This document shows positions 1 to 17,557 of a DNA stretch of 30,014 nt, in pieces. Under the pieces are notes generated by a model that was given only the letters and a program-made list of their open reading frames with translations, did not search any database and was not told the origin of the DNA. The translations under genes and the position numbers were made by a program. The DNA is taken from the IMG/VR virus record IMGVR_UViG_3300042301_003334, positions 1 to 30,014 of that record; one strand, 5' to 3'. Position 1 is the stretch's first letter. Every line of letters starts with the position of its first letter. The DNA is from a virus.

Positions 1-317
1 TCAAGAATTGAATGTGATACTCTATCTAAATCGATAAGAGAAGAAGATGGGTGATTTAACTCATTAAGAGCACCACCTTTTTTAATAAGAGTTTGGTATT
101 TGTCGTTTTCTCTTTTAAGAAGAGCTTCGGGATAGATTCTCCCGTTTTTGTTTGGAGTGTCGTATTTCTGTAAAACAGCATAAAGGATAAGGTCTTGTGA
201 AAAGTCCATATCCTTCATTTCCGATATAATTTTTTTGTTGTCATCAGGAGACACGTGACCTGCGTCGTATTCAATAAGAATACCTTTTCCTGTTTCATTC
301 GGACCTAATATCTTCAT
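1..317 (-). CDS. Prohead core protease, gp21-like (N-terminal 105 residues; runs off the window)
   Basis: The reading frame opens at an ATG (317-315) and continues past base 1, so only about 105 residues are visible. They contain NGRIYP (residues 58-63) followed by a helix LLKRENDKYQ and the motif ELNHPSSS with His89. That is the N-terminal half of the T4 gp21-type (S80, herpes-assemblin-like) prohead protease; this His is the first catalytic residue, and the catalytic Ser would lie outside the window. In T4-type phages this enzyme degrades the scaffold and trims head proteins after LxE/IxE. It is the last gene of the visible head block. A TATTTATA motif lies 13 nt before the ATG. Similarity is judged by eye, but the two motifs are distinctive. 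Confidence 0.85.
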   Translation of the reverse strand, partial: MKILGPNETGKGILIEYDAGHVSPDDNKKIISEMKDMDFSQDLILYAVLQKYDTPNKNGRIYPEALLKRENDKYQTLIKKGGALNELNHPSSSLIDLDRVSHSIL

Positions 318-330
318 TTATAGTTTTTAC

Positions 331-338
331 TATAAATA
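331..338 (-). promoter_or_regulatory. TATTTATA motif upstream of the prohead protease
   Basis: On the minus strand this reads GTATTTATAGTAAAA, ending 13 nt before the start codon. The same octamer with the same 13-nt spacing precedes three other genes in the window. I infer a phage-specific promoter element; its function is untested. Confidence 0.5.
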
Positions 339-352
339 CATCGATAATTAAG

Positions 353-778
353 TTATTTCTTCGATTTGTTAAAATTGTATAAATTTTTGTTAGTTAGACC
401 ATCGTCAACAATTCCCTCAATAATAGATTTAATTGAATTTTTAATATCTTTAGATTTAATATCAAATTGATTCTCAACAAATAGAGTCACCTCTAAATTC
501 ATAAAGGACCGTTTTTCTAATTTTATTCCTTTAGTTCTAATATCTAAATCGACAATTGATTGAGGTTTAAAGTTAGTGTTTCTTAAACCGTAAATGAAGT
601 CTTTTATTTTTCTTCTGGATTTTAAAATGGACGAATCGAAATCGTCGCTATCGTTATTGGGTTGTACCCACGAATTTAATTTTAAATAAATTGTTTTTAA
701 ATTTTTGTAATCAACGGTACCATAACCGATTTTTACATTATTGTATTCCCCTAATGGGATATACTTTCCTATTTTCAT
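353..778 (-). CDS. Hypothetical protein, 141 aa, in head-gene block
   Basis: An ATG-started frame of 141 codons, rich in Lys, Asn and Ile, ending NFNKSKK. There is no signal peptide or membrane segment and no motif I recognise. It lies between the bS21 gene and the protease gene, on the same strand as the head genes, which hints at a role in head assembly, but position is the only argument. The start has no Shine-Dalgarno sequence. The middle part (about 85-125) reads as alternating strand and helix, so it is probably a small globular protein. Confidence 0.7.
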   Translation of the reverse strand: MKIGKYIPLGEYNNVKIGYGTVDYKNLKTIYLKLNSWVQPNNDSDDFDSSILKSRRKIKDFIYGLRNTNFKPQSIVDLDIRTKGIKLEKRSFMNLEVTLFVENQFDIKSKDIKNSIKSIIEGIVDDGLTNKNLYNFNKSKK

Positions 779-852
779 TAATTAATCATATTATATAATT
801 TTTATGGTGTATTCAAAATATAAAATAAAAAAGTTAAAAAACCAAAAAAATA

Positions 853-864
853 TATTTATATTTG
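853..864 (+). promoter_or_regulatory. Candidate promoter of the bS21 gene
   Basis: TATTTATA (853-860) overlaps TATATTTG (857-864), the Bacteroidota -7 form TAnnTTTG. No TTG is visible at the usual distance upstream, so this may be read by a phage-modified polymerase or be weak. It lies about 20 nt before the ATG. Confidence 0.4.
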
Positions 865-883
865 TAATATAAATTTAATTAAG

Positions 884-1075
884 ATGATAATAGTTGATTT
901 AAGTAAAGAAAAAAGTATTGAGAGTGCTTTAAGGACTTACAAGAGTAAAGTTTTAAAAGTAAAACAGGTTCAAAAATTAAGGGAGAGACAAGAATTCACG
1001 AAACCTTCGGTTACCAAGAGAAAAGAGAAATTAAAAGCAGTCTACATACAAAACAAAAAAAATGGTCTTGATTAA
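884..1075 (+). CDS. rpsU: Phage-encoded ribosomal protein bS21
   Basis: 63 residues that align along their whole length with bacterial bS21: the start MIIVDLSKEKSIESALRTYK, then QKLRERQEF, KPSVTKRKEK and AVYIQ (Tyr54). bS21 is a small-subunit protein near the 3' end of 16S rRNA, where anti-Shine-Dalgarno pairing occurs. In flavobacteria, bS21 is reported to help hide the anti-Shine-Dalgarno sequence. The phage copy could replace the host protein on ribosomes and change which mRNAs are preferred; that is inference. It is the only plus-strand gene within a minus-strand block, has no Shine-Dalgarno sequence (ttaattaag before ATG), and ends inside a two-way terminator shared with the convergent gene. 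Confidence 0.92.
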   Translation: MIIVDLSKEKSIESALRTYKSKVLKVKQVQKLRERQEFTKPSVTKRKEKLKAVYIQNKKNGLD

Positions 1076-1090
1076 ACAAGACCATTTTTT
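1058..1090. terminator. Bidirectional terminator holding two stop codons
   Basis: AAAAATGGTCTTG (1058-1070) and CAAGACCATTTTT (1077-1089) form a perfect 13-bp stem with a 6-nt loop ATTAAA. T runs follow the stem on both strands. The loop holds TTAA (1072-1075), which provides TAA to both convergent genes. Confidence 0.9.
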
Positions 1091-1812
1091 AATTGCACCA
1101 ATCGGTAATAGTTAAATTTGGATGGCTTCATTTCGTTAACTTCATCCTTTACCTTTGTTAACTTATTAGATAAATCAACATCTTTAGATTCGCTTAGGAT
1201 TGTTCCTACTTGACCTAATATGGATTCTTTTAAATCCCCCACCTTTATTTCAAGGTCTTCATCCGTTAATGATAAAATACCTTGTAATTCTTTCTTTTGT
1301 GATTCGTTTAATGAGTTATTATATAATACGTTAAAATTATTTGCTAAAACTGCATATAGAAGATTTTCGTTTTCTACTAATTGTGTGTCTTCTTTTTTTA
1401 CTTCTTGTTGTTTTTTAGTTGTTAAATGTTCTACTAATTTTTTCTTTGCTATAATTTTCTTGTCTACGTTGCTTAAATTTTCTTCTTGTACTAATAAATC
1501 TAAATAAGAATACAATTCATTTTCGTTAATTTCTACGTCTTTTAATTTTGTATTTAAATTTTTACTGAAACTTGCGATTTTATCTGACTTGTCTTTTAAG
1601 ACTGATTTGATTTCTTCTACATACAGTTTAGCAATTTCTTTATCATCGAAGTATTTGTTTTCGATTTCCTCATAAAACAAGTACATCTCTTTGAAGTCTT
1701 TGTTTTCTTTTATTGTGTTTAAAATATCTTTAACTTCCTCCTTATTCTTATTGGAATAAGATTCTGTTAATTTTTTTAATATCTTAGTTTTTAAAACCCC
1801 GAATTTGTTCAT
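1072..1812 (-). CDS. Charged coiled-coil protein, 246 aa, possible prohead core component
   Basis: Very rich in Lys, Glu, Leu and Asn, and mostly helical by appearance. It starts 2 nt after the portal stop codon, so it is translated with the portal. It carries three sites of the form LxE followed by Ser: LTES (residues 15-18), LNES and LSES. These match the T4 gp21 cleavage rule ([L/I]xE before A/G/S), suggesting that the prohead protease processes it. Scaffold or internal head protein is a reasonable guess from composition, sites and position; I see no domain signature. It ends in the shared terminator with bS21. Confidence 0.75.
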   Translation of the reverse strand: MNKFGVLKTKILKKLTESYSNKNKEEVKDILNTIKENKDFKEMYLFYEEIENKYFDDKEIAKLYVEEIKSVLKDKSDKIASFSKNLNTKLKDVEINENELYSYLDLLVQEENLSNVDKKIIAKKKLVEHLTTKKQQEVKKEDTQLVENENLLYAVLANNFNVLYNNSLNESQKKELQGILSLTDEDLEIKVGDLKESILGQVGTILSESKDVDLSNKLTKVKDEVNEMKPSKFNYYRLVQLKNGLV

Positions 1813-1814
1813 TT

Positions 1815-3656
1815 TTAATCGTTTAGTATATCTGTTATTTTTGTTTCTATTTCATAAATATTACGTTGTGCTTTCTCCATATCAAATAAGATATTAAAAT
1901 CTTCTTTTTCTTCACCTAACATACCTAATATTTTTGATTTTCTTGATGTTGATTCACTTAACGGTCCTTCACCTCCGGCAGGTGCTTCAGGCATTGCAGG
2001 TGCGCCTCCGCCTCCACCCATGTCCATACCACCACCTAAGGCTCCTTCAGCACCGGCTTCACCACCCGCAGCGGCAGCTTCAGCTTTCTCTCTCTCTTCT
2101 TCAGGAATACCATACTTAGCATCCACACCATCAAATACGCCTGAACGTCTAATTATCAATTGGGTATTCTGTAGCTCAAAGCCCATTGCTCTTTCAAGAC
2201 GTTGTTGTTGTAAATCAAGAACAACCTCAGCATCACTTAAACCAAGAATGTTTTTCTTAGCCCAAGTGTGGGACACTGGTAAGATACCCATTTGAGACTG
2301 GTCAGATGTCGCATCTTTATAAAGAGTAATTTTTTCTTTCCACTGTTCGATTTTTAATAAATCAGATTGCGCTGATGGATTTGTTAACGATAAGGAGAAA
2401 TTATTTAACTCATCCTCTAAACCTAACAAGTATAGGTGGATTAATGCTATCTTATTTAACTCTTGGATAACGGATTTTTGTATTCTATTAATTGTGCGAG
2501 CAAAACGAATATCCATTAACGCTAAACTTTTACCTTCACCCACAACTTCCTCAAAGCCTAAGAACGCTTTTGGTATACGTAAAGCCGCAAGTAATTTCTT
2601 TTGGATATACTCAATATCTGCAATCTCACCTAAGTTCTGAGCTCCTGGTAATGTTTCAATAGGACTACTTTGTGCCGGGTCACGTACAGGGATAAAATAA
2701 TCTTGGTCAACTGACATTTGATTATATCTCATATCCACCTGACCGTTACGTGGGTCTGATACTTGGTCTCTTTTAAATTTGTTTGCAACACGTTGTACGT
2801 ATGGTTCAATATCCTTATCGTCCATATTACCAACAAACACCTTAAACACACGTCTTTCAGGTGCTCTTGATGTTCTGTAAATTAACATTGCATCTTCAGC
2901 AAGTAATAATTGTTTCCAAATACGTCTAATTTTGTCTAACATAGAAGTACCGTATGGTAATTTTCTATCGTCACCCAATATTCTAAAGTGAGCAACTTCC
3001 CATGCTTGGAATTCCATGTCTTTATTTTTCCAATGAAATCTTAATTCACGAGATGGTAATTTCGTATCTCTATTTTGACCGTTACCCTTTTGTGGTGCAC
3101 CCTCAAGTCTCTCAATTTCAATATTTGGTAATTGTTGACAACCAATAACGCCCCTTTCTGGGTCAATCTTCATATACACAAAATTGTCCCCATATTTACA
3201 GAGACCTCTTGTCCACATTTGAAGATTTGTGTTAACATCTAAAACATTATTAAATAAATCTTCAAGAATACTTTTTACTCTATTTGATTCTGAAAAAATT
3301 GTAAGTATTTCACCCTTTTCAGACATTGTTGTCGATTCCTCAGCATATATATCTAAGGCTGCCGAAATTTCAGGAGTGTATTCCATTGATTCATAATCAT
3401 AATATGCCGCCAATCTATTTGGTTCATAATATACTGATTGATTATAAAGTGATTGGTCTAATTTGGTCCATTTGTCGGAAATATACGAACTTTGTTGTGC
3501 TTGAAGTAACGCCTTTTCATATTCTTCTTTACTGTCCGTTTTTAATAATTCGTCTTTTGAGAAATTAAATGACGGTGTTTGTTCGGGTCTCACTTGTCCC
3601 GGATACCCAAACACTTTTGTTAATCTCTGAAAAACTGTTAGATTTTGCTCTGCCAT
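1815..3656 (-). CDS. Portal protein, T4 gp20-like
   Basis: 613 residues. The portal dodecamer forms the head-tail vertex and the DNA channel. Family resemblance: YDYESMEYTPEISAALDIYA near residue 70, where portals have a conserved early helix; a central region of strands; and an EVVGEGKSLALMDIRFA segment followed by a long helix (stem or crown). T4 gp20 is about 524 residues; the excess is mainly a Gly/Ala/Met/Pro-rich tail (about 520-565), then a charged helix. LSES (566-569) in the tail matches a prohead-protease site, so the last 45 residues could be trimmed. It lies directly downstream of the terminase (53 nt), with TATTTATA 3 nt before the ATG. Confidence 0.88.
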   Translation of the reverse strand: MAEQNLTVFQRLTKVFGYPGQVRPEQTPSFNFSKDELLKTDSKEEYEKALLQAQQSSYISDKWTKLDQSLYNQSVYYEPNRLAAYYDYESMEYTPEISAALDIYAEESTTMSEKGEILTIFSESNRVKSILEDLFNNVLDVNTNLQMWTRGLCKYGDNFVYMKIDPERGVIGCQQLPNIEIERLEGAPQKGNGQNRDTKLPSRELRFHWKNKDMEFQAWEVAHFRILGDDRKLPYGTSMLDKIRRIWKQLLLAEDAMLIYRTSRAPERRVFKVFVGNMDDKDIEPYVQRVANKFKRDQVSDPRNGQVDMRYNQMSVDQDYFIPVRDPAQSSPIETLPGAQNLGEIADIEYIQKKLLAALRIPKAFLGFEEVVGEGKSLALMDIRFARTINRIQKSVIQELNKIALIHLYLLGLEDELNNFSLSLTNPSAQSDLLKIEQWKEKITLYKDATSDQSQMGILPVSHTWAKKNILGLSDAEVVLDLQQQRLERAMGFELQNTQLIIRRSGVFDGVDAKYGIPEEEREKAEAAAAGGEAGAEGALGGGMDMGGGGGAPAMPEAPAGGEGPLSESTSRKSKILGMLGEEKEDFNILFDMEKAQRNIYEIETKITDILND

Positions 3657-3659
3657 GTA

Positions 3660-3667
3660 TATAAATA
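3660..3667 (-). promoter_or_regulatory. TATTTATA motif before the portal
   Basis: Minus strand AGTATTTATATACATG: the octamer ends only 3 nt before the portal ATG, which is too close for an ordinary -10 box serving that start unless the transcript is leaderless or starts elsewhere. It belongs to the short-spacing group, with the terminase. Confidence 0.4.
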
Positions 3668-3709
3668 CTTTTCTTTCTAATATAAACTAAAATATTAATA
3701 ATTGGAATA

Positions 3710-5491
3710 TTATTTTCTTCCACCACCAAATAACCAAGAATACTCTTGATAAGCCTCTCTTGGAACGTTTTGGTTATTGATACCAACTTGTCTGTTATTA
3801 TTGTCCATTCCCATCGTCCCTATTTGGTCAAAAACCGTACCATACGAATAAAAACTTTTACTTGTTTCGTACGTTCTATCAGAAACGGTCCACGATTCTA
3901 ACATTGCTTTATTAACCGCACCTGTTTTTTCTAATTGACTAAAACAAATATCGCCGGCGTATAATGCAATTGACATACTCATAATTGCATCATCATGTGC
4001 ACCTTTCATGTGGTCAGGTCGTCCATTCATATAAACAAACGTATTAAGTTCATTTAATAACCTACTTGACCTAACAGCAAAACCTTTTCTTAATTGCTCC
4101 TCAAATGCTGCAACGATTTGTGTTCTTTTATTGTTAAAATTTATACCGGGTATCTTCTCCATCGCCTTAGCATTGTATTCCCAAATGTTTTGAGTGTTAA
4201 CACCGTCGATGTATAAATTCTTATAACTTAGTTCTTGTAATTTTCTTGATGTTGCAACACCCATACCTCCCGTTATATCGGTAACAATAAACGCATTACC
4301 ATATATTACACCCCATTTGTATGCGATTTGTGCTAAATCGTCCGGCGGTATCTTACCGATATATTCAAGAACTTGTTCCCTATCGTCAAAATCAACAATA
4401 TTAATTGCTGAGAAGTCTTCACTATCACCTCTACTAACATCAACACCCATTATATAACGATGACCCTCAATTGGTTCCTTCCATTGCCATAATGTTGCTT
4501 GCATATATTTTTCAATAGGGGTGCGTATCATATTCTTAGAAATGTTCTCTTGAACAAATCCCGGTATTACACCATCACCCGACCCCAAGAAGTCACACTC
4601 TAATTCTTGTGATATTTTACGTCTATCGTATTTAAACTTTTTAGACATAGATTCAAACCAAGATGAGTATGGTTTATATCCTTGCTCTTCTAATTCTTGA
4701 TAATTGGACATGTCAAACTCATAAAGAACAACTTCATTATCGTCGTATTGTTCTCTGTTTAACATGTAATGACATATATCCTGACATTTAACCCATCGTA
4801 AATCTTTTGTATAACGAGGGTCTTTAAACCATCTTAAATCGGTTATATGGAAATCATTGATTCCACGAATGGCTTGGTCATAAACACCGTAATAAATTGG
4901 GTCATAACCATTTGGTGTTGAAATAAGAATAATCTTACCACCGGTAGATAGGGATGCCATAGATGCTGCCCAAAAGTCTTCACCGGCTTCGATATAAGCA
5001 GCTTCGTCAAATACAAGTACTGTAGGTGTAAAACCACGAAGTGCATCCGCAGATGTTGCAACGGCTTTTACTTCGGAACCATTATTTAACCTAAATCTAC
5101 TTTCAGAGTTTTTATCGGGTGAGAACCCAACATTTAACCATTCCGGCCATTGGTCTAAGAAATTTCTAATCTTATTAGCCATCTCCACCGCGGTGTCCTT
5201 TTTATTAGCAATAATCAAAACCCTCTCAGGATTCTCTGGTTTAGCTAATTGTAATTTCTTAGATAACCAAGCGGCAGTTACGGTTGTTACACCGGCCTGA
5301 CGATATTTCTTTGTGATGTTTTCGTTGTAGTCTTCGTAATCCTGAATTAGTTGTAATTGGTCAGGAAATAGGTTCATTGGAACGTATTTCTTTTGCGTAT
5401 TATCGTATGTTTGTAGATACGTTCTTAACGCATATGGCGTATCTTTTATGATACGAGCATATTCTTTTAGTTGTTCTAATTTACTATTCAT
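3710..5491 (-). CDS. Terminase large subunit, T4 gp17-like
   Basis: 593 residues from the ATG at 5491; an in-frame TTG 15 nt upstream is less likely. This is the DNA-packaging motor and headful nuclease. ATPase part: a Walker-A-like loop RQAGVTT (64-70) in which the usual Gly-Lys-Thr is replaced (no Lys at that position); Walker B VLVFDE (158-163); coupling motif STPNG (191-195). Nuclease part: GVDVSRGDSEDFS with Asp351, VTDITGG with Asp405, and HDDA (499-502), the RNase-H-fold acidic triad. Length is close to T4 gp17 (610). It starts right after a terminator and is followed by the portal. Confidence 0.93.
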   Translation of the reverse strand: MNSKLEQLKEYARIIKDTPYALRTYLQTYDNTQKKYVPMNLFPDQLQLIQDYEDYNENITKKYRQAGVTTVTAAWLSKKLQLAKPENPERVLIIANKKDTAVEMANKIRNFLDQWPEWLNVGFSPDKNSESRFRLNNGSEVKAVATSADALRGFTPTVLVFDEAAYIEAGEDFWAASMASLSTGGKIILISTPNGYDPIYYGVYDQAIRGINDFHITDLRWFKDPRYTKDLRWVKCQDICHYMLNREQYDDNEVVLYEFDMSNYQELEEQGYKPYSSWFESMSKKFKYDRRKISQELECDFLGSGDGVIPGFVQENISKNMIRTPIEKYMQATLWQWKEPIEGHRYIMGVDVSRGDSEDFSAINIVDFDDREQVLEYIGKIPPDDLAQIAYKWGVIYGNAFIVTDITGGMGVATSRKLQELSYKNLYIDGVNTQNIWEYNAKAMEKIPGINFNNKRTQIVAAFEEQLRKGFAVRSSRLLNELNTFVYMNGRPDHMKGAHDDAIMSMSIALYAGDICFSQLEKTGAVNKAMLESWTVSDRTYETSKSFYSYGTVFDQIGTMGMDNNNRQVGINNQNVPREAYQEYSWLFGGGRK

Positions 5492-5495
5492 ATAG

Positions 5496-5503
5496 TATAA
5501 ATA
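5496..5503 (-). promoter_or_regulatory. TATTTATA motif before the terminase
   Basis: Minus strand TTTTTTGTATTTATACTATATG. It comes immediately after the T run of a terminator and 4 nt before the ATG. The order terminator, TATTTATA, ATG argues for a transcription start here. Confidence 0.5.
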
Positions 5504-5504
5504 C

Positions 5505-5529
5505 AAAAAAGGGAGGTTAAAAACCTCCC
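5505..5529 (-). terminator. Terminator after the 479-aa gene
   Basis: GGGAGGTT/AACCTCCC, an 8-bp stem with a 3-nt loop, followed on the minus strand by six T (5510-5505). It closes the transcript from the 479-aa gene. Confidence 0.85.
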
Positions 5530-5554
5530 CTTATAATTCTGTGGTATTTTGTGA

Positions 5555-6994
5555 CTATCTAAACTGATTTAAAAAATCCTCATCACTTTCCTCATTGTCA
5601 TCGTTTGATGGTAAATTAAAACCTAACGACCTTAACTCATCCATTAACGCATCTTCATTTGTTTTTAATGAAAGTTCTTCGATGTCATTGTTAAATTGAC
5701 CCATAGCATCTTCATACTCTTCATCGTTTAACATTTTCTTAATACCTTCTAACATGTTTGACAATAAACCCTTACCTGTTTCTGAGTTAGAAATCACTTC
5801 TCTCATTAACACTAAAAATTCTTTAGCGGGTAATTGGAAGACATTCATGAAAAGGTAATTTTGTAACTCTTTACCATTTTCCATTAAAACTTCTTCAGGA
5901 AATGCGGTTCTTACTCTGTCCCAAATTGCAGGTCCTAATCTTAAATCCCACATTTCTTTTTCCAATGTATCCTCAAGCTCCATGACCTTATTAGTCATTG
6001 CTCTATCTTGTGGATTTTGATACTCTCCAGTTTGTCCCCAACCACCTAAAACTTCTAAAACACCTTTAATTAGTTCGTGAACTAATACAGGGAAATTGAT
6101 ACCTTGTGCGTAAACTTTTGGTTTTCCACTATCTTCTTGACCCTCACCCTCATTATCATCATCATCATCGTTACCCGCAAATTTAGCATTTTCTTTACCC
6201 GCAACGCTATCACCTGAACTTCTAATGAAATCGTCACTCAATTGCCAATAATTGGCGTCATTAACTGACATCATAATACCGTATAAATTTACTAAAGTAT
6301 CTGAACCGGTAATATCTCTAATTTTGTCGGGTATTAATTGATACATATAGTGACCCTTTTTAGATGCACCTTGTATGATACTATTAATTAACCTTCTTTT
6401 TGCCCGTTCTAAATTTAATTGAGATAAATCAAGGTATAATTCCTCCTCAATCTCCATCATTTCAGGGTCAATATTTTCTTCAGCGTCAACATCCACTTCT
6501 TGTGGGTTTGGTGGCGGTGTTCCACGTTCTCTATTAAAATCACTAGTATCAAATTCGTTTTGACCAATAATCTCAGCTTTAAAATCGATATCATCATCAC
6601 CAAGACCCATTTCTTCTTTTACAATTGCAATTGCTAAATCTTGTAATTGCCCTCTGTAATTGCGTTCAAGTCGAATAATTTCGTTGTGTGCTTGACCCAT
6701 CATTTGCACAAGCGGTAACATATTCTCAAGACCACCACTAAGGGTACCTTGAAAATTTGTATAATTTCTAACATTCTGAACTACTTGTTGATAACGCTCA
6801 GACGCTAATAATTCTTGAAAGTTTTGATGTGCAACATCTGTTTTAGGCAATGGTACTTTACTTAACGGCGTATCATTAGCTTGTAGTTTTTGTTGAATAT
6901 CGCCTGACGGTCTATCAGGACTGTAAAATTCCATTGACATTTCGTTTACATTTTGTTTCACCAAAGATAGTACCTTTTCTTTTGTAAATTTCAT
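5555..6994 (-). CDS. Hypothetical head-block protein, 479 aa, acidic
   Basis: No recognised domain. The N-terminus (MKFTKEKVLSLVKQNVNEMS) is helical. About 150-200 holds a Pro-rich stretch and an acidic one (EENIDPEMMEIEEELYLDLS). About 275-290 is a run of Asp/Glu (NDDDDDNEGEGQ), and the C-terminus is acidic. Total length, strand and place between terminase and other head-block genes suggest a virion or assembly protein. It has its own terminators on both sides, so it is probably transcribed alone; no TATTTATA lies upstream, only an AT-rich stretch. Confidence 0.75.
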   Translation of the reverse strand: MKFTKEKVLSLVKQNVNEMSMEFYSPDRPSGDIQQKLQANDTPLSKVPLPKTDVAHQNFQELLASERYQQVVQNVRNYTNFQGTLSGGLENMLPLVQMMGQAHNEIIRLERNYRGQLQDLAIAIVKEEMGLGDDDIDFKAEIIGQNEFDTSDFNRERGTPPPNPQEVDVDAEENIDPEMMEIEEELYLDLSQLNLERAKRRLINSIIQGASKKGHYMYQLIPDKIRDITGSDTLVNLYGIMMSVNDANYWQLSDDFIRSSGDSVAGKENAKFAGNDDDDDNEGEGQEDSGKPKVYAQGINFPVLVHELIKGVLEVLGGWGQTGEYQNPQDRAMTNKVMELEDTLEKEMWDLRLGPAIWDRVRTAFPEEVLMENGKELQNYLFMNVFQLPAKEFLVLMREVISNSETGKGLLSNMLEGIKKMLNDEEYEDAMGQFNNDIEELSLKTNEDALMDELRSLGFNLPSNDDNEESDEDFLNQFR

Positions 6995-7012
6995 AGTTGT
7001 AGATATTTTTTT

Positions 7013-7036
7013 AAAAAACCCTCATAAGAGGGTTTT
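7013..7036 (-). terminator. Terminator after the 281-aa gene
   Basis: AAAACCCTC (7015-7023) pairs with GAGGGTTTT (7028-7036) around ATAA; a T run follows on the minus strand. It lies 4 nt past the stop codon. Confidence 0.85.
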
Positions 7037-7039
7037 AAT

Positions 7040-7885
7040 TTATTCGTCTTCCTTTAACGCCTTAGGTTTTGGATTAACTCTTGGGCCCGGTCTAAATGGA
7101 GTTTTCTTTGGTGTTGTACCCGGTTTTATTTTTGGAGGTGCAATTGTTGGTGCTGTTTGATTTTCACCAATCTCCTGTTCAACACCCATACCCGCTTTAG
7201 CAGGTGGGTTAACTTTTGGACCCGGTCTAAATGGATTTCTCTTTGGAGTAGTCCCCGGTTTAGTCTTTGGCGGTGCAATCGTTGGTGCAGGTTGTGCCGC
7301 AGATGTAATGGCATCATATGTCATAAACTCAGGCAAACCATTGTGACCTGTTTTAACGTTTGGACCAAATTCGTGAACTTCTGATTCATTTAATTTCATT
7401 GAGATTAATTCCATGATTTCATTCTTAGATGTGAAACTGTGATATTTTGTTTCTGCTAAGTTACTAACCCATTCATTAATTTCCAACTGAGATTCATTCA
7501 AACATTTTTCTTTTAAAGAATCTAATGTACAATCGTGTTTCTTCATATACTTGAAGATGTCTAATTTCATTTCTTTTCTTGATGGTTCTTCACCACCTTT
7601 AATATGATTCCATATTTTAGAAATTTCATCAGATTTTAAAGTATCCACCGCGTTTAATCCACCCTCTTCTTTTTCTCTTAATTCAACATTCATACCAGTA
7701 TCGGTAACTCTTTTGATATCTGTTGGGTTTGTGCCCTTTTTCATAATAACAGCACCTTTACCTGATGATTGCTCACTTAACATTCTTGATGATAAGTCAT
7801 TTAGTTGTTTATCTGTAAAGTTAACCAAGGTTTTTGCTGAAAATCCCTCGTTTATTAATTTCTGAATTATTTCGTTTCTTTTCAT
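7040..7885 (-). CDS. Hypothetical protein, 281 aa, with duplicated Pro-rich tail
   Basis: The N-terminal 190 residues are helical and charged. The last about 85 residues contain a direct repeat of about 30 residues, APTIAPPKTKPGTTPKRNPF...VNP and APTIAPPKIKPGTTPKKTPF...VNP, rich in Pro, Lys and Arg, so probably extended and basic. Candidate prohead-protease sites: INEG (11-14), LNESQ and LNESE, plus LSEQ. The ATG overlaps the stop codon of the upstream 132-aa gene (TAATG), so the two are translationally coupled. A head-internal or DNA-binding role would fit a basic tail but is a guess. Confidence 0.72.
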   Translation of the reverse strand: MKRNEIIQKLINEGFSAKTLVNFTDKQLNDLSSRMLSEQSSGKGAVIMKKGTNPTDIKRVTDTGMNVELREKEEGGLNAVDTLKSDEISKIWNHIKGGEEPSRKEMKLDIFKYMKKHDCTLDSLKEKCLNESQLEINEWVSNLAETKYHSFTSKNEIMELISMKLNESEVHEFGPNVKTGHNGLPEFMTYDAITSAAQPAPTIAPPKTKPGTTPKRNPFRPGPKVNPPAKAGMGVEQEIGENQTAPTIAPPKIKPGTTPKKTPFRPGPRVNPKPKALKEDE

Positions 7886-8283
7886 TAGTCCTTGTATTTT
7901 ATTTCTTCCTTTATTAGAAGGTAACTTCTAAATTTTAATTTTTTTGTGACACTTTCCATTGATTCACCGAATTTGAATGTTAAACGTTCTTCTTCTGAAT
8001 CGACATCAAATTTTTCCCAAGCCAAAGCAACGACACCGTCAACAGCGTCAATGACTCCGAAATAATCGGAGTCTTGAACTAATTCTAACTGTAAGTCTGT
8101 GTCTTTTAATAACCCAACCGTGTCAACATATTCAACATCGGGGGATTTGGAGGATACCTCTAAAGAGGCGGGGATTGTAAACCACTCATCCATGTCAATC
8201 TCAGTACTTGTACTAAAGATGAACTCATACTGTTTTTGACCCTTATAATCGGAACCAATTTCGTTGACATAGATGAGGTGCAT
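7885..8283 (-). CDS. Hypothetical protein, 132 aa
   Basis: A compact acidic protein with alternating strands (MHLIYVNEIGSDYKGQKQYE, then WFTIPASLEV). There is no signal peptide and no motif that I recognise. It sits between the acidic 416-aa gene (3 nt upstream) and the 281-aa gene (1-nt overlap), making a three-gene operon. It looks like an ordinary globular beta-rich phage protein; a virion role is possible from context only. Confidence 0.72.
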   Translation of the reverse strand: MHLIYVNEIGSDYKGQKQYEFIFSTSTEIDMDEWFTIPASLEVSSKSPDVEYVDTVGLLKDTDLQLELVQDSDYFGVIDAVDGVVALAWEKFDVDSEEERLTFKFGESMESVTKKLKFRSYLLIKEEIKYKD

Positions 8284-8286
8284 CGT

Positions 8287-9537
8287 TTACTTAAAATATT
8301 TTGCTAACGTTGTGTGAATATTATTGTTAATTTCTTTTTTCATTTCTTCCAAGTCAATTTCAACCTCATCCATTTCTTCTTCTGCTTCACCACCATCTTC
8401 GTCACCGGTAAAATCGTCAAGACCAATTTCCTCACCTGTATAATCGGTATTGTCTTCCATTCCTGCAGCATCACCAACTTCGTCAAAATCACCGCTTAAA
8501 TTATCATTTAAATCGGGTGATGTATAATCGGGCTTATAATCAGGCATTCCATATTCCTCATCTAAATCTGAATAGTCTTCAATGTTAATTTCGTCTAAAC
8601 CTGAATAATCTTCTTCATCTAAATCAGAATACATTTCCTCATCGATTGAAGAATTGATAAAGTTTTCTAAAGCATCCATTGGATTCTCTTCTTCACCTAA
8701 TTCTTTGTCAGCTGAGATTGGCTCCTCTTCAGGAGTTTCCTCACCGCTTGGTTCCTCACTGCTAAAATCGTCTTCTGCACCCGCATAATCTCCTTCTTCT
8801 TCATCTCTGTCGAATTTGTCTGCAATGTCTTCAATATCGTCATCGTCTAATTTGTCTAAATCAACTGCGGAAATAATCATATTAAGAACGTACTTAATAT
8901 CATCACTTTCCATTTTATTATGTAAATCTCTCAATTCTTGCCCTAATTTGCCTGCGTATTTTTGAACTTCCGCCATATAATCAGAACGTTTTGGTTCAGA
9001 TGATTCTTCATCACCACCCATATCTTCACCATCCATTGCAGGTTCTTCAGCCGCAGGTTCTTCTGCAGCGGGTTCTTCCATACCGGGTTCCGCAAGAGAA
9101 GGAGTCACAGATGCATCCGAAGGTGGCATGTCATCAATTGCAGGTTCCTCAGGCATTGCCGGTACTGGTGCGGGTGCTTCTTCTTGTGGTTTGTTTTGTT
9201 TTAAAACATATTTTGTAGCTTCATTAATTAATTCCTCTTGACCTTTAATTAACTCAAGACGTTTTAAAGCTTCAGCATATGATGAAAACTTGTTTTTATT
9301 TTTCATGAACATTCCACCAATGTAGTCAAGTGAACTTTCGTTCAACCCTCTCTTAACATAGTATCCGTCTCTTTCTTTAACAATTCCATAAACACCGCCT
9401 GATTTAGATTCTTTTACTATTTCAGCTTTGTTAGCGCTTTTATTATTGTCATTTTTGTAGTATGTTAACTCAAGGATTCTTCTTAATTTGTCATCCCCGT
9501 TAAGTTTTTCACTACCAAGTGGTTTTAAATCTGCCAT
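8287..9537 (-). CDS. Very acidic low-complexity protein, 416 aa
   Basis: The first about 110 residues are a normal basic/helical segment including LNES (cleavage-like) and INEA. From about 115 on, the protein is dominated by Glu, Asp, Pro and Ala, with short repeats (EEPAAEEPA; YSDLDEE, YSGLDE, YSDLDEE), ending in a helix EIDLEEMKKEINNNIHTTL. Strong negative charge, [L/I]NE|[S/A] sites and position in the head block fit a prohead-core (scaffold-like) protein that is removed on maturation, but other roles are possible. It is the first gene of the 416-132-281 operon. TATTTATA lies 35 nt before the ATG. Confidence 0.75.
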   Translation of the reverse strand: MADLKPLGSEKLNGDDKLRRILELTYYKNDNNKSANKAEIVKESKSGGVYGIVKERDGYYVKRGLNESSLDYIGGMFMKNKNKFSSYAEALKRLELIKGQEELINEATKYVLKQNKPQEEAPAPVPAMPEEPAIDDMPPSDASVTPSLAEPGMEEPAAEEPAAEEPAMDGEDMGGDEESSEPKRSDYMAEVQKYAGKLGQELRDLHNKMESDDIKYVLNMIISAVDLDKLDDDDIEDIADKFDRDEEEGDYAGAEDDFSSEEPSGEETPEEEPISADKELGEEENPMDALENFINSSIDEEMYSDLDEEDYSGLDEINIEDYSDLDEEYGMPDYKPDYTSPDLNDNLSGDFDEVGDAAGMEDNTDYTGEEIGLDDFTGDEDGGEAEEEMDEVEIDLEEMKKEINNNIHTTLAKYFK

Positions 9538-9572
9538 TTTTGTATATAAATTAGATAAACTTATTCTTAAAC

Positions 9573-9580
9573 TATAAATA
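9573..9580 (-). promoter_or_regulatory. TATTTATA motif upstream of the 416-aa operon
   Basis: Minus strand ATATATTTATAGTTTAAG, 35 nt before the ATG; a second, imperfect copy (9545-9552) is closer. Likely promoter element of the three-gene operon. Confidence 0.42.
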
Positions 9581-9609
9581 TATTGTAATACGTAAAAAAA
9601 TAAGGTTCT

Positions 9610-10368
9610 TTATTGTGTTATAGATAATTTATTATCTTTAAGTTTGTTTTTTAGGTCAATCAATTTTTCAATGTAACCATTTCTGCGAAGTAATTTGAAT
9701 GTTAGATTTTCGTAAGAATACTCCCCACCGACGTCTAAACCACTTTGTCTAAATTTTTTTATCTTTACTCTTAATTCATCAATTTCATTATCCACATCTT
9801 CACCCTCTTTATTTTTAGAGATTAATTCATCAATTTGTTTTGCGTATTCCTCACCTTTTTCGATAATTTTCCTATCGTCAATCTTAGGATTTGATTTTTC
9901 GGGGGTTACCAACCATTTATCATGTAGCACCGAATAGACACCGGAAGATAAATGTTTTTCATCAACGTCTTGAACATAAAGCTCAACATCATATTTTCTT
10001 ATTTTGATATTGTGGTTCTTATTCCAAAGATTTTTTTTGGTGTCGAAGAATTCTTTTAATATGTCTAACTTATAATCAGTTTCCTTGAAATCTATTAGTA
10101 TATGTAAATCAACATCGGAATACTTTGACCAATTATAATTAGCCAATGAGCCGGTAAGAATAATATCGTGTATAAAAAATTCAATACCTAAGAATTCAAT
10201 AAAATCGTCAGCTATCTCCAATAAACGTTTCTTAATTTCATCACGCATAAAAAATTCACTACCTGATGACTCAAATATGTCACCGGATAGTGAATCCTTT
10301 GTTTTGAAAGATTTAACTATTCTTTTATCAGTAGATTTAACTTCAATCAGTTCTTCAAATAAACTCAT
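9610..10368 (-). CDS. Nucleotidyltransferase-fold protein (Pol-beta superfamily)
   Basis: 252 residues. TGSLANYNWSKYSDVDLHI (72-90) is the GS...DxD signature with Gly73-Ser74 and Asp85/Asp87; a third acidic residue could be in KYDVELYV (Asp127 or Glu129). Members transfer NMP groups to proteins, RNA or small molecules; the substrate here cannot be read from sequence. The C-terminal half is helical and charged. Its ATG overlaps the TGA of the upstream KTSC gene (ATGA), so they form an operon. It could be a minimal nucleotidyltransferase of an antitoxin-like system, but no partner toxin is visible. Confidence 0.8.
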   Translation of the reverse strand: MSLFEELIEVKSTDKRIVKSFKTKDSLSGDIFESSGSEFFMRDEIKKRLLEIADDFIEFLGIEFFIHDIILTGSLANYNWSKYSDVDLHILIDFKETDYKLDILKEFFDTKKNLWNKNHNIKIRKYDVELYVQDVDEKHLSSGVYSVLHDKWLVTPEKSNPKIDDRKIIEKGEEYAKQIDELISKNKEGEDVDNEIDELRVKIKKFRQSGLDVGGEYSYENLTFKLLRRNGYIEKLIDLKNKLKDNKLSITQ

Positions 10369-10610
10369 CCAACTTTTTTGTAGGTATGTCCTTTAGCGAT
10401 ATGCTCGTTAAAGTATTTCCCTTGAGATTCTGCTAACCGTAATTTAGTAAACTTATTCCAAGGGACTTTATTATATTCATAAATAGCGCCGTTTTTAAAA
10501 GTTACGAGTAAATCTTCATTTTCGGTGTTGTAACTTGCTTTAATTAGATTTGTTGAGTTGATTTCAACCTCAATCATGCCACCATTAATTTTTTCAGATA
10601 AAATAGCCAT
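10365..10610 (-). CDS. KTSC-domain protein, 81 aa
   Basis: The sequence follows the KTSC pattern: residues around NSTNLIKASYNTENEDLLV, then FKNGAIYEYNKVP, then ESQGKYFNEHI and a final YKKVG. KTSC domains (about 60 residues) are found in phage and bacterial proteins and fused to lysyl-tRNA-synthetase-like or RNA-related proteins; the function is not well defined. It is the first gene of a pair with the nucleotidyltransferase (4-nt overlap). Confidence 0.85.
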   Translation of the reverse strand: MAILSEKINGGMIEVEINSTNLIKASYNTENEDLLVTFKNGAIYEYNKVPWNKFTKLRLAESQGKYFNEHIAKGHTYKKVG

Positions 10611-10655
10611 ATGTTTTTTGTTTAAGTACGGTGCAAATATAACAAAAAAATTATA

Positions 10656-10826
10656 TTATTTACCCTTTAATTGATTAAATAGTTTATCTTTTAATATGTC
10701 TTTTCTTTGGTTACCTCTTTCGACATTATTTGAAAACGACGGTTCGGATGATTTATTACTTAATCTGTTTTGTAGGATAAGGTTAGACTCCTCCATGTGT
10801 TTTCTTTTTAATACTGATTTGTTCAT
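10656..10826 (-). CDS. Small hypothetical protein, 56 aa
   Basis: A complete frame from ATG (10826) to TAA (10656), short and basic (MNKSVLKRKHMEESNLILQN ... RKDILKDKLFNQLKGK). No known motif. Evidence that it is real: it is placed between a terminator and its own TATTTATA motif at the 13-nt spacing seen for the protease and other genes, with codon use like its neighbours. Probably helical; function unknown. Confidence 0.6.
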   Translation of the reverse strand: MNKSVLKRKHMEESNLILQNRLSNKSSEPSFSNNVERGNQRKDILKDKLFNQLKGK

Positions 10827-10839
10827 GATATGATTTTAT

Positions 10840-10847
10840 TATAAATA
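10840..10847 (-). promoter_or_regulatory. TATTTATA motif of the 56-aa gene
   Basis: Minus strand TTTGTATTTATAATAAAATC, ending 13 nt before the ATG and about 6 nt after the T run of the Hsp20 terminator. Confidence 0.5.
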
Positions 10848-10853
10848 CAAATG

Positions 10854-10877
10854 AAAAACCCCGATTTCTCGGGGTTT
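10854..10877 (-). terminator. Terminator of the Hsp20 gene
   Basis: AAACCCCGA (10856-10864) pairs with TCGGGGTTT (10869-10877) around TTTC; five T follow on the minus strand. Confidence 0.88.
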
Positions 10878-10881
10878 CATA

Positions 10882-11247
10882 TTAACTAAGCGAAATCATC
10901 CTTTCTAATGATTTCTTTTTACTTTTTGGGAGGATTATTTCCAACACACCATTTTCTACACTTCCGGCAATGTGCTTCTCATCTACATCATCCGGTATGT
11001 GGTATGTTTTCTTAAATGAACTTGTAAATGAATAAATTTTATCATCGGTTTCTTCTTTAACATATGAAATGTTTAAATAACCTTCTTTTGTTGAAATTGT
11101 AAGGTCATCTTTAGTTAAACCGGGTACCGCAATGTGTACCTGATAATCCTCATCAGTTCTTGTTATTTTTGGTTGATTAATTTGTTTTGGTGTTTCAAAT
11201 ACACTATCCAGTGCTTGAAACAATGGGTCTTTAAATAATGTTATCAT
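10882..11247 (-). CDS. Small heat-shock protein, Hsp20/alpha-crystallin family
   Basis: 121 residues from the ATG at 11247; an in-frame GTG at 11268 would add seven residues but is less likely. The alpha-crystallin domain spans about 30-110: DEDYQVHIAVPGLTKDDLTI, then YHIPDDVDEKHIAGSVENGVLEIILPK, which holds the family's A-x-x-x-NGVLxIxLPK motif. Such proteins hold unfolded proteins in soluble form, ATP-independently. Divergent from the ClpC-like unfoldase, with a shared control region: a holdase-unfoldase pair. The final SLERMISLS lacks a clear IxI tail. Confidence 0.92.
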   Translation of the reverse strand: MITLFKDPLFQALDSVFETPKQINQPKITRTDEDYQVHIAVPGLTKDDLTISTKEGYLNISYVKEETDDKIYSFTSSFKKTYHIPDDVDEKHIAGSVENGVLEIILPKSKKKSLERMISLS

Positions 11248-11303
11248 AGTTTTAATTGTTTTATACACCGTATTTTACAAATTATAAGCCAAATGGTTAA
11301 AAC

Positions 11304-11414: not shown

Positions 11415-13436
11415 ATGTCTGTAGAATTCTTCGAAGATGGCCCGACCATCAATCCAAAGAGAACCAAAAAGGGTTCAAACACACCAATTTTAGATAATTT
11501 CTCCCGAGATTTAATTAAACTCGCTGAGGAAGGTAAGATTGACCCTATTATTGGTAGGGACAAAGAAGTGAAACGAATTGCACAAATTCTATCACGTAAA
11601 AAGAAAAACAATGCGGTTATTGTGGGTGATGCCGGTGTTGGTAAAACAGCAATTGTTGAGAAACTTGCTTTAATGATTCAAAAGGGTGAATGTCCCACAG
11701 TATTGTTAGATAAACGTATTATGTCGTTAGATTTAACATCTTTAGTTGCCGGTACAAAGTATCGTGGTCAATTTGAGGAGAGAATCAAGGCGATTTTGGC
11801 TGAATTACAAGAAGCACCTAACGTTATTGTATTTATCGACGAATTACACACTATGGTGGGTGCCGGTAATGCAAGCGGTGCTATGGATGCTGCAAATATC
11901 ATGAAACCCGCACTTGCTCGTGGTGAGATGCAGTGTATTGGTGCCACAACATTTGATGAATATAAAAAACACATCGAAAAAGATGGGGCATTATCTCGTA
12001 GATTCCAAAAAGTCATTCTTAAGGAACCAACAATCGAGGAAACAATTGCAATTCTTAAAAATCTACAAAATTCTTACCAAGATTTCCATAAAGTTGTTTT
12101 TGAAGAAAATGTAATAGAAACCGCAGTTAAATTAGCAGGTCGTTACATTACTGATAGACAATTTCCCGATAAAGCTATCGATGTTTTGGATGAATTAGGT
12201 TCGGAAAAAAGAGTTTCAAGCACTATTCCCGAATCTATTGAAAAATTAAAAAAAGAAGCTGATGAGGTGAAAGAAAGAAAACTTCAAGTAGTAAAAAATC
12301 AAGATTACGAAAATGCGGCTAAACTTCGTGATGAAGAAAAGAAGATTTTAACCAAATTAGATTCTGAAAAGAAGAAATGGATGGAAAATCAGAAAGATAA
12401 TAAGGTTCCTGTAACCATTGACGATGTTTATTCTATCGTTTCTGAGATGACAGGCGTACCAATCACTAAGATGGACCAAAAAGAGACTCAAAACCTCTTA
12501 AACATGGAAAAAACGCTATCAGCAAAGGTAATTGGACAAGACGAAGCTATCACATCCATCTCAAAAGCTATTCGTCGTAACCGTGTCGGTATTAAAGATG
12601 CAAATAAACCTATCGGTTCATTCATTTTCTTAGGCTCTACAGGGGTTGGAAAGACGTTCCTTGCTAAATCCTTAGCTGAGAACCTTTTCGGTGACCCAGA
12701 GAAGATTATTCGCGTTGATATGAGTGAATTTATGGAACGTCACAACGTTTCTCGTTTAATTGGGTCGCCTCCGGGTTATGTTGGACACGAAGAAGGTGGT
12801 CAATTGACTGAAAAAGTGAAAAATAACCCATTTTCGGTGATTTTATTTGATGAGATAGAAAAAGCTCATAAAGATGTGTTTAATATCTTACTGCAAATCT
12901 TAGATGATGGTCATTTAACCGATTCTTTTGGTAGAAAAGTGAATTTTACCAATTGTTTAATTATCATGACGTCAAATGTCGGTGCTAAAAAGGTATCTGA
13001 ATTTGGTGGCGGCGTTGGATTTACCACTTCATCATCAGAAACTCAAAAATATGAGGTTAGAAAGTCAATGATTCAAAAATCTTTGAAGCAACAGTTTAAT
13101 CCTGAGTTTTTAAACCGTATTGATGACATTGTGTTATTCAATTCATTAGGTTCTGACGTTCTTAGAAAAATTATCAATGTAGAAATTGGTAAATTAAACG
13201 CAAGATTGGTAGAAAAAGGTTATAAAGTTACGTTCGATACGTCCGTTACTAATCAAATTTATGACCTCAACACCCAAGAAGAATACGGTGCTCGTCCATT
13301 GAAACGTATTATTCAAAATCTTTGTGAAGATTTCCTTAGCGAAGAGATTCTTAAAGGAAATATTGTAGAAAACAAAGAAGTTTCGTTGATTTTTGAAAAT
13401 AATGAACTAAAACTTTCTAAAAAAAGTATCATTTAG
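11415..13436 (+). CDS. ClpC-like AAA+ protein unfoldase without the N domain
   Basis: 673 residues, two AAA+ modules. First: Walker A GDAGVGKT (71-78), Walker B VIVFIDE (137-143). Middle: a UVR-like helix [11 protein letters not shown] (298-308), typical of ClpC. Second: Walker A GSTGVGKT (407-414), Walker B VILFDE (475-480). Bacterial ClpC proteins are about 810-850 residues; the missing part is the N-terminal Clp_N adaptor domain. VGF (534-536) lies where ClpP-binding loops (IGF/VGF) occur, so it may dock on host ClpP; otherwise it could work as a disaggregase. Host-type promoter and operator-like repeats upstream suggest early expression. Divergent from Hsp20. Confidence 0.92.
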
Positions 13437-15011: not shown

Positions 15012-15152
15012 ATGATACAATTAGTATTAATCTTATTTCTTATGTGTGGTTCATTAGGTGCCACAATTTCTAAAATGACAACTGAGTATGGTCCTAAAAG
15101 ACAAAGACAACATACTGAACCCTTAAAAGTTGATAAAGAAGTGATGTCTTAA
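15012..15152 (+). CDS. Small single-span membrane protein, 46 aa
   Basis: MIQLVLILFLMCGSLGATIS is a membrane helix, then a basic/hydrophilic tail of 26 residues. The start is supported by its separate upstream AT-rich region; the stop codon shares TTAA (15149-15152) with the convergent 500-aa gene, repeating the arrangement at bS21. Function unknown; a size typical of phage membrane toxins or inhibitors. Confidence 0.6.
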   Translation: MIQLVLILFLMCGSLGATISKMTTEYGPKRQRQHTEPLKVDKEVMS

Positions 15153-16651
15153 AGCATCATTCTTGAACCTATCAAGAAATTACTTAATATCGGAGCTCCC
15201 GGTGCTGTTGACGTATTAATTTTATAGTTAAAACTTAGACCAAATCTTTTACTTAGTTTATAATCAACTGAACTACCGGCTAAGATACCAACAGTGTTAC
15301 CATAAGTAATTAAACCTGTCACAGTGTTCATACTTGTCCCTGGTGGCATCACAAATATTTGAGGGGAAAGTGTGAGTTTTTTGTTAACGGGGTATGGCTT
15401 AGTCCAAAACGCAACAGCAGAATTACTTACTGTTAAATCAAAACCACCGCTTTGATTTTGTAACATTAGTGAGACAATACCCAAGTTATAACCATATACA
15501 CCATATTTTGAATTTGGAACAATTTTGGTAAATCCACCCAATAACATATAATTCCCTGTTAGATATGCGGATGTTAATGAATAAGAATTGATTGATGTTA
15601 ATTTTCCTTTACTATCTAAATTCATTTTTGTTATACCGCCACTAACCGCGAATTGTTGTAAATTACTCCAAATCATAGTATTCAATGAATAACTTTTATC
15701 ACCCATTAATGAAGATTTACTTAAACCCAAAGACAAAATTGCGGCCCATTCTGTCTGACTTGTCTCTACGACTGATAAATCGGAAGCTATTAGTAATGGA
15801 TTTATTGGCGCTGGTTTTGACTCTTTCTTCTTCTCTTCTTTCTTTTCTTCCTTTTTTTCTTCTTTTTTAGATTCCTCTTTCTTTTCTTCTTTTTTTGATT
15901 CGGATTTTGACTCTTCTTTCTTTTCTTCGGATTTACTTTCCGATTTAGATTCAGACTTTGATTCGGATTTAGTTTCACTCTTAGTTTCTGACTTACTTTC
16001 AGATGAAGATGATGTACTACTTTTACTTTCAGATGAACTGGATGATGAAGAACCACCACCGTTAGATGACGAACTACTCGCTGCAGGTGCGGATGAACCG
16101 CTACTTGGTGCGGGTGGAGGTGTTGCCGCTGTTGCTGCTGCTGAACTTGCAGAGCCACTTGCTGCGGATGATGCTGACGAACTTGCGGCGGATGATGCCG
16201 CACCACTAGCTGCCGTCGATGCGGCCGATGAAGCTGCATTACTTGCCGCGCTACTTGCAGCTTGGGATGCTGCACTACTTGCTGCTTGTGAAGCCGCCGC
16301 ACTTGCCGCCTGTGTGGCTGCTTGTTGTGCCGCCTGTTGTACTGCCTGATTAACCGTTTGTTGGACTGTTTGTTGAACAACAATATTGGTTGGACAACCG
16401 ACTGTTGAATAGGCCAAATATACAGATTGCAACCAAAGCTGCATAGCCCCGCTTTGAACTTCAGCAGGGGTAAAAGACCTCATTTGATTATAAAATGAAA
16501 CAAAGGCGTTCCCATTCACATAAGTGGTAGTAGCAACTTTAACCTCACCTGAACATTTATCGATAAATGTTTGGGTAAATGTTTGTCCACTAACTTTGGA
16601 AGTTAGAAATAAGATAAATAATACACTTAATAACCCTTTTAACTTTTTCAA
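15149..16651 (-). CDS. Exported low-complexity protein, 500 aa, with beta-rich C-terminal domain
   Basis: Start is TTG (16651): the codon before it is TGA, so no other start is possible, and the signal peptide (MKKLKGLLSVLFILFLTSKVSGQ) fits exactly. Parts: 23-90 globular with two Cys (about 32 and 85, possible disulfide); about 91-175 Gln then Ala/Ser repeats (AAS AAS QAASSAAS), probably a long helix; about 177-215 Pro/Ser linker; about 215-290 Ser/Glu/Lys repeats (KKEEKKEE), a charged helix; about 300-500 strand-rich, resembling a small outer-membrane barrel. A stalked surface protein is my reading. No family recognised. Third gene after the 240- and 48-aa genes. Confidence 0.8.
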   Translation of the reverse strand: MKKLKGLLSVLFILFLTSKVSGQTFTQTFIDKCSGEVKVATTTYVNGNAFVSFYNQMRSFTPAEVQSGAMQLWLQSVYLAYSTVGCPTNIVVQQTVQQTVNQAVQQAAQQAATQAASAAASQAASSAASQAASSAASNAASSAASTAASGAASSAASSSASSAASGSASSAAATAATPPPAPSSGSSAPAASSSSSNGGGSSSSSSSESKSSTSSSSESKSETKSETKSESKSESKSESKSEEKKEESKSESKKEEKKEESKKEEKKEEKKEEKKKESKPAPINPLLIASDLSVVETSQTEWAAILSLGLSKSSLMGDKSYSLNTMIWSNLQQFAVSGGITKMNLDSKGKLTSINSYSLTSAYLTGNYMLLGGFTKIVPNSKYGVYGYNLGIVSLMLQNQSGGFDLTVSNSAVAFWTKPYPVNKKLTLSPQIFVMPPGTSMNTVTGLITYGNTVGILAGSSVDYKLSKRFGLSFNYKINTSTAPGAPILSNFLIGSRMML

Positions 16652-16654
16652 TCA

Positions 16655-16801
16655 TTAATAGATTACGTTATCGATTTTATTGATAATTGTGTTCTCCAAT
16701 TCTTCATTAAAGAAATGAGAATAAACCATTACGCCGTCAAAGATTAACGCACAGAATATAAAAGTGGCCACGATACCTGCGACAATATTATAAGTTTTCA
16801 T
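16655..16801 (-). CDS. Small membrane protein, 48 aa
   Basis: ATG at 16801, TAA at 16655; MKTYNIVAGIVATFIFCALIFDG is a membrane helix, then a soluble tail YSHFFNEELENTIINKIDNV. It begins 3 nt after the 240-aa gene's stop and ends 3 nt before the 500-aa gene's TTG start, so all three are likely translated together. Function unknown. Confidence 0.6.
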   Translation of the reverse strand: MKTYNIVAGIVATFIFCALIFDGVMVYSHFFNEELENTIINKIDNVIY

Positions 16802-16804
16802 ATT

Positions 16805-17527
16805 TTATTTTTCAAATATTTTTTTCTTTATCATTCTATCTAAGATTCTTGCACATGCAATATCAAGTGCTTTCTTAGTTGAAATTGAAATTGTTGATTG
16901 ATTAAATTTAACGGGGTCGGCAGTTGCGTCAGATAATAACGTCAATTCTCTTACCGTTTTTGCTTCACCCAATCCCGATGCTCCAAATACTACACCCGTT
17001 TCTGCGTCTGTAAATCTTACTTGTAAACCTAAACGAGTAACCATCATATTTTTAACACCATCTTTTAAATTGATAGTTTCATCTTCACTTACCGAATAAT
17101 CATAACACTCAATTGTAACGAAATACTTAGCCAAGTTTATTTTACCACGTCCATCTAATTTATTTTCAGATATACCCGCTTGTGACGCTTGGAATTGTTT
17201 TACCATACGATTCTTAATTTCTGTCTTATCTTCTGTGAATTTAAAACGATTAAGATTCTCAAGATATTCCATAGAGATATTGGCAACACCAAGTCCGACT
17301 CTTTTTTCTTTAAGTTCAGGATACATTTCATACATCTCATCCGATATTCCGCACTTTAAAATTTGAATTGGTATTTGCGGTCCCTCGTAATCCATGAATT
17401 GGGAAATATCAATTGCGGTTTCAAATGATGCTTTATATTGTTCAGTTTTAGTTGAACCAATAGTTTGAGAAAATCCCAAAAACGGTAGTAATACTACCAA
17501 AATGAGAATAAAAATAAACTTCTTCAT
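16805..17527 (-). CDS. Exported protein, possibly CsgG-like, 240 aa
   Basis: Signal peptide MKKFIFILILVVLLPFLGFSQ, no lipobox. The mature part has the sequence of strands and helices seen in CsgG/LpoB-like proteins: RVGLGVANIS, a stretch with ENRMVKQFQ-type helix, LDGRGKINLAKYFVTIECYDYSV, TRLGLQVRFTDAETGVVFGASG, and a final Ala-rich helix. CsgG forms an outer-membrane secretion pore; here only the fold similarity is argued, and the Cys of the lipoprotein form is absent. It opens its own transcript: terminator, TATTTATA, 13 nt, ATG. Confidence 0.75.
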   Translation of the reverse strand: MKKFIFILILVVLLPFLGFSQTIGSTKTEQYKASFETAIDISQFMDYEGPQIPIQILKCGISDEMYEMYPELKEKRVGLGVANISMEYLENLNRFKFTEDKTEIKNRMVKQFQASQAGISENKLDGRGKINLAKYFVTIECYDYSVSEDETINLKDGVKNMMVTRLGLQVRFTDAETGVVFGASGLGEAKTVRELTLLSDATADPVKFNQSTISISTKKALDIACARILDRMIKKKIFEK

Positions 17528-17540
17528 AATTAATTTTTAT

Positions 17541-17548: not shown

Positions 17549-17557
17549 TCTTAAAAT

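Follow-up and report, generated by a model that had tools for sequence, protein, structure and literature searches.

A phage-encoded bS21 gene without the Shine-Dalgarno sequence of host rpsU and with a predicted terminator shared with its neighbor

Introduction

Why would a phage carry a gene for ribosomal protein bS21, and why would that gene stand alone on the strand opposite the head genes that surround it? The question is raised by a 30,014-nucleotide stretch of viral DNA (IMG/VR record IMGVR_UViG_3300042301_003334; hereafter the window). Part of the setting was described by Chen et al. (2022; PMC9723584) for Bacteroidetes jumbo phages with bS21 and genomes of 293-331 kb: bS21 is surrounded by TerL, portal, protease, and MCP genes that run on the other strand, Tyr54 stacks on A1534, the N-terminal helix is divergent, and metatranscriptomes show bS21 highly expressed along with late structural genes. 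The authors hypothesized that ribosomes carrying phage bS21 prefer phage mRNA, and proposed that the conserved C-terminus serves substitution of the bacterial protein. The window, a 30 kb fragment with a relative (L005) on a 269 kb record, agrees with their description in the strand arrangement, the two hypothetical flanking genes, Tyr54, tRNA arrays, Clp, and the divergent N-terminal helix. It joins that group, for which the locus arrangement, the Tyr54 argument, and the retuning hypothesis were already published in 2022. Pelagibacter phage HTVC008M, whose host belongs to another phylum, also encodes a bS21, and this protein is reported to have been incorporated into E. coli 70S ribosomes (Mizuno et al. 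2019, cited in PMC9723584 and PMC9976891). New here are the lack of an rpsU-type Shine-Dalgarno (SD) sequence on the phage bS21 gene as compared with host rpsU, a shared terminator that appears to shape the KNGL tails of two proteins, and distinct promoter motifs; none of these was found in main-text parts of Chen et al., with which the comparison was made by description.

The bS21 gene and its neighborhood

The gene and the head genes nearest to it are as follows.

3-317, minus strand: prohead protease (Peptidase_S77), truncated at the window edge; Pfam/PHROG, full-length L002 relative E 3e-22
353-778, minus strand: orf141, divergent neighbor with no assigned function, from the ORF list and the layout in relatives
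884-1075, plus strand: bS21 gene, 63 aa, Tyr54, tail KKNGLD; PF01165, E 8.5e-10
1072-1812, minus strand: orf246, convergent neighbor with no assigned function, overlapping bS21 by 4 nt; tail LKNGLV
1815-3656, minus strand: portal protein (gp20-like); PF07230, E 5.3e-79
3710-5491, minus strand: terminase large subunit; PF03237, E 3.5e-9, with an ATG start as in L002

The bS21 reading frame starts with ATG and matched both PF01165 (Ribosomal_S21; 38.6 bits against a curated cut-off of 27) and PHROG 21469, 'ribosomal protein S21'. Flavobacterium johnsoniae bS21 (McNutt et al. 2023, PMC9976891; PDB 7jil chain z), a protein of the same family with 64 aa and Tyr54, was among the nearest relatives of solved structure and was 44% identical; the gap-free alignment, for which 62 residues of the 7jil chain were used, placed the tyrosine of the window protein at residue 54. 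The initial annotation had called the product a full-length bS21 with Tyr54, and the two family matches and the alignment with the host protein agree on this. All 70 distinct phage bS21 sequences have Tyr54, as does the window protein. A structural model (pLDDT 89.7) predicted two helices, 12-36 and 41-59; a Foldseek search with this open two-helix protein gave no informative PDB match, and no additional domain was found within the 63 aa. A mixed phage and host bS21 alignment was too variable for the collection scan, and F. johnsoniae bS21 was taken as the query instead.

Among the distinct related IMG/VR loci that cover the interval, 108 of 111 carry a bS21 gene there that runs the same way, and the median pairwise dN/dS among relatives was 0.15; because of this retention and this ratio, bS21 is not a chance reading frame but a gene under purifying selection. 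A single bS21 was found per phage record (records of 49 to 269 kb), and a copy of bS18 was sought in the same records and not found. Three related loci (L155, L305, and L374) have no bS21 between otherwise conserved neighbors.

From position 1 to 11268, every credible gene other than bS21 lies on the minus strand, which bears out the earlier description of bS21 as the sole plus-strand gene of a minus-strand head block. The block is T4-like, with a gp20 portal, TerL, and an S77 prohead protease within the window; the Gp23 capsid gene lies just outside it and was seen in the near-identical L002. For terL, the mechanically called reading frame uses a TTG start (5492-5506, minus strand), probably in error: the conserved start is the ATG at 5491.

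Several features farther from bS21 were also observed. A Clp-type AAA+ ATPase gene with a host-type promoter element (11415-13436, plus strand) adjoins an Hsp20 gene (10882-11268, minus strand); McNutt et al. raised, as speculation, the removal of host bS21 by a phage protease (PMC9976891). About ten genes in a row at 15149-23999 (minus strand), many with signal-peptide or lipoprotein-like starts, include one for a 759-aa protein with a C-type lectin domain, and dockerin/cohesin-like stretches were judged by eye in the same run. An array of 16 tRNAs (ARAGORN) occupies 24319-30014 (plus strand), to which Rfam adds two tRNA matches, one at 24319-24388 and one, truncated where the window ends, at 29963-30014; spacers at about 25350-26090 in this region are unannotated and structured-looking.

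Promoter elements and timing of expression

Two kinds of motif distinguish bS21 from the head units around it.

331-339, minus strand: GTATTTATA, the late-type motif of the phage, before the protease gene
857-864, plus strand: TAnnTTTG as TATATTTG, host-type and -7-like, in the bS21 promoter; it shares bases with TATTTAT at 853-859
3660-3668, minus strand: GTATTTATA, late-type motif, before the portal gene
5496-5504, minus strand: GTATTTATA, late-type motif, before terL
9573-9580, minus strand: GTATTTATA/TATTTATA motif at a head unit start

Among relatives, TATTTATA lies close upstream of the first genes of head transcription units. Once near-identical leaders had been removed, TA[TC]TTAT was counted upstream of portal (39/39), terL (45/47), protease (25/25), scaffold (30/30), and orf416 (17/18), where 1 to 4 were expected. 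The leaders of MCP and orf246, genes internal to units, and those of orf479, orf281, orf132, and orf141 in the same loci were without TATTTATA, which rules out a mere effect of AT-rich leaders. GTATTTATA was strand-biased in most long records (in that of 269 kb, for example, 18 against 3, where the control gave 2 to 2), and a sigma-70 region 2 protein is encoded in eight of nine records. The GTATTTATA/TATTTATA motif is probably the phage late promoter. At the head units it stands 4 to 38 nt before the ATG and resembles the T4 late box in reverse complement; at terL it sits inside the TTG-started extension mentioned above, and its positions predict very short leaders, or none, for portal and terL.

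The element TAnnTTTG, which we take to be the Bacteroidetes -7 element, occurred ahead of bS21 in 24 of 42 dissimilar regions, where 1.3 were expected, and in 18 of 21 regions upstream of clp, the only other place where it was enriched; each head gene set had it in 0 to 1 regions. The phage motif TA[TC]TTAT was found as well in 29 of the 42 bS21 leaders, most often 5 to 6 nt ahead of the start codon. On these grounds bS21 forms a separate transcription unit whose promoter elements are of mixed type. A scan for sigma-70 TTGACA/TATAAT promoters gave no excess (46 matches, 51 in shuffles). It had been suggested that bS21 is timed differently from the head genes: the host-type promoter element of its own speaks for this, and the published metatranscriptomes, with their late co-expression, speak against it (PMC9723584). 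Based on the motifs, the timing of bS21 may differ from that of the head units, and early plus late expression is possible.

Shine-Dalgarno sequences and host rpsU control

The phage gene differs from its host counterpart in the leader.

862-883, plus strand: SD-free bS21 leader, pairing energy +0.9 kcal/mol against a Flavobacterium rpsU median of -17.2

The initial annotation had reasoned that a phage bS21 could retune ribosomes to phage mRNAs, which lack SD sequences. Its premises stand: the protein is a bS21, Tyr54 is present, and the genes of the window are SD-less, with a median pairing energy to the 16S tail of 0.15 kcal/mol against -0.1 in shuffled leaders. They do not imply retuning. 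The mRNAs of Bacteroidia hosts are themselves SD-less and are translated by ribosomes that disregard SDs (PMC9976891), so phage mRNAs of this kind can do without a retuned ribosome; Tyr54 is kept, so hiding of the anti-SD is predicted to be preserved, not altered. What sets the phage apart from its host is not the SD-lessness of its mRNAs but the leader of bS21 itself.

Initiation on SD-less mRNA is impaired when the bS21 C-terminus is lost, strong-SD mRNA is favored upon bS21 depletion, and the extended SD of F. johnsoniae rpsU serves autoregulation by bS21-lacking ribosomes (PMC9976891). In Flavobacterium rpsU this extended SD is GAGGAGGTG; the median SD pairing over 80 loci of the Flavobacterium type was -17.2 kcal/mol, and a core SD was recognized by pattern in 66 of the 80. 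By contrast, no SD was found by pairing energy in 75 phage bS21 leaders (median +0.9, shuffled +0.8), and the extended SD of the autoregulated Flavobacteriales rpsU type is absent from the window gene. With no SD on its mRNA, phage bS21 would stand outside the host feedback, and it should likely escape rpsU autoregulation, the host gene having a strong SD and the phage gene none. Escape would not be relevant in every host: when 28 further loci of the order around G002 were sampled, most had no strong rpsU SD (median -2.05). SD-less starts, TAnnTTTG promoters, and the bS21 type are compatible with a Bacteroidetes host; feedback escape would depend on the host.

A proposed replacement supply and the N-terminal helix

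The gene, its Tyr54, its position, its lack of an SD, its promoter elements, and its terminator are seen in the sequence; from them we infer incorporation, replacement, and host rpsU shutoff. We judge the chances evenly balanced that phage bS21 is a replacement supply in the host 30S subunit, free of host rpsU feedback. The proposed role is as follows: phage bS21 would be made from its own SD-free transcript, separately promoted and terminated, which ordinary bS21-replete ribosomes would translate. The protein would take the place of host bS21 in host 30S subunits, where Tyr54 and the conserved C-terminal half would keep the 16S tail hidden. Ribosomes would thus stay able to start on SD-less phage mRNAs even when host bS21 was short, and the phage copy would not be throttled by the loop in which bS21-lacking ribosomes prefer the strong-SD rpsU mRNA. 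In addition, bS21-free ribosomes would be filled by the phage protein and host rpsU would thereby be kept off. Against replacement supply, the phage-specific N-terminal helix is left unexplained, and the three related loci noted above live without bS21.

When 70 phage sequences were compared with 79 Tyr54-type host sequences, the C-terminal half (KPSV..R..KA.Y; KPSV, R46, K51, A52, and Y54) was common to both. The N-terminal helix differed at near-fixed positions: F23 was replaced by V in 69 of the 70 phage sequences, G27 by K in 67, T/V28 by Q in 67, and D24 by Q in 62. Retuning is possible, and would rest on these phage-specific residues, not on Tyr54. In the hypothesis of the initial annotation and of Chen et al., phage bS21 would make a specialized ribosome; on this view it would replace the host protein, and its altered helix would shift mRNA selection toward phage late transcripts, a reading that also draws on the co-expression of bS21 with late genes (PMC9723584). 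We consider it unlikely, though not negligible: phage and host mRNAs are both SD-less (PMC9976891), with no selectable feature evident; the divergence of the helix could stem from long separate evolution alone; and the phage bS21s of L301, L302, and L304 are nearer to host sequences in this helix. Distinctly improbable, in our judgment, is a scheme in which SD-free bS21 floods bS21-free 30S subunits, the host loop silences rpsU, and the N-terminal helix then biases the resulting distinct ribosomes toward phage late leaders.

A terminator shared by two genes

The end of the bS21 gene carries a second kind of information.

1057-1090, both strands: predicted bidirectional intrinsic terminator that covers the stops of both genes; its inverted repeat has 14 bp and A/T tails

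Folding of the repeat is seen for either strand (z -6.9 and -5.8), and T runs follow it in both directions. The stop codons of bS21 and orf246 overlap, by 4 nt in the window and 8 nt in most relatives; because they overlap inside the shared inverted repeat, both proteins end in KNGL, with one tail per hairpin arm (KNGLD in bS21, KNGLV in orf246). The conserved C-terminus could instead be a protein feature for ribosome binding to which the hairpin is secondary, in line with the substitution role suggested by Chen et al. (PMC9723584), and the tail of Flavobacterium bS21, (K/R)D(S/G/N)LES (KDSLES in F. johnsoniae), gives that reading some ground. Because these host tails are related, the KNGL tail appears to be remodeled from the ancestral one.

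The codons point the other way. The tail Leu is CTN in 68 of 68 bS21 genes, whereas CTN accounts for 22% in the rest of bS21. The same holds for 77 of 77 orf246 genes that have the hairpin, against 18% elsewhere in orf246; where orf246 ends in KNGL without a hairpin partner, the codon is TTA in 10 of 12. In the 8-nt class, two pairs changed on both sides (T-A to C-G and T-A to A-T; 8 cells), none of 500 shuffles was as high for cells and covariation score, and the paired changes are synonymous in both bS21 and orf246. Template-switch repair could be an alternative source of such paired changes. The NGL tail and a repeat of at least 9 bp co-occur in 71 of 80 cases, and the 28 loci that have bS21 without the NGL tail all lack the hairpin. 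Many independent origins of tail and hairpin were ruled out by the portal tree, on which about two changes were seen; for that reason the codon and covariation data weigh more than these counts. A separate terminator follows orf246 in two of the three loci without bS21 (L155 and L305). The reading of the C-terminus as a protein feature, already weakened, is now improbable, and the conservation of the C-terminus reflects, at least in part, a terminator constraint at the level of DNA.

Implications for phage and host

That bS21 acts off the ribosome, packaged in the virion or in another RNA-protein complex, is very improbable: the gene sits among head genes, packaging was raised by Chen et al. 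(PMC9723584), and an extraribosomal role was proposed in the OLE complex of Halalkalibacterium (PMC12054373), but the ribosome-binding half and Tyr54 are conserved and the 63 aa contain no extra domain.

The shared terminator offers a DNA-level explanation for a protein tail whose conservation had been read as ribosome function. Replacement supply, in turn, gives a concrete reason for a phage to carry bS21 where host rpsU is under feedback control: an SD-free copy would not be held back by that loop and should turn the host gene off.
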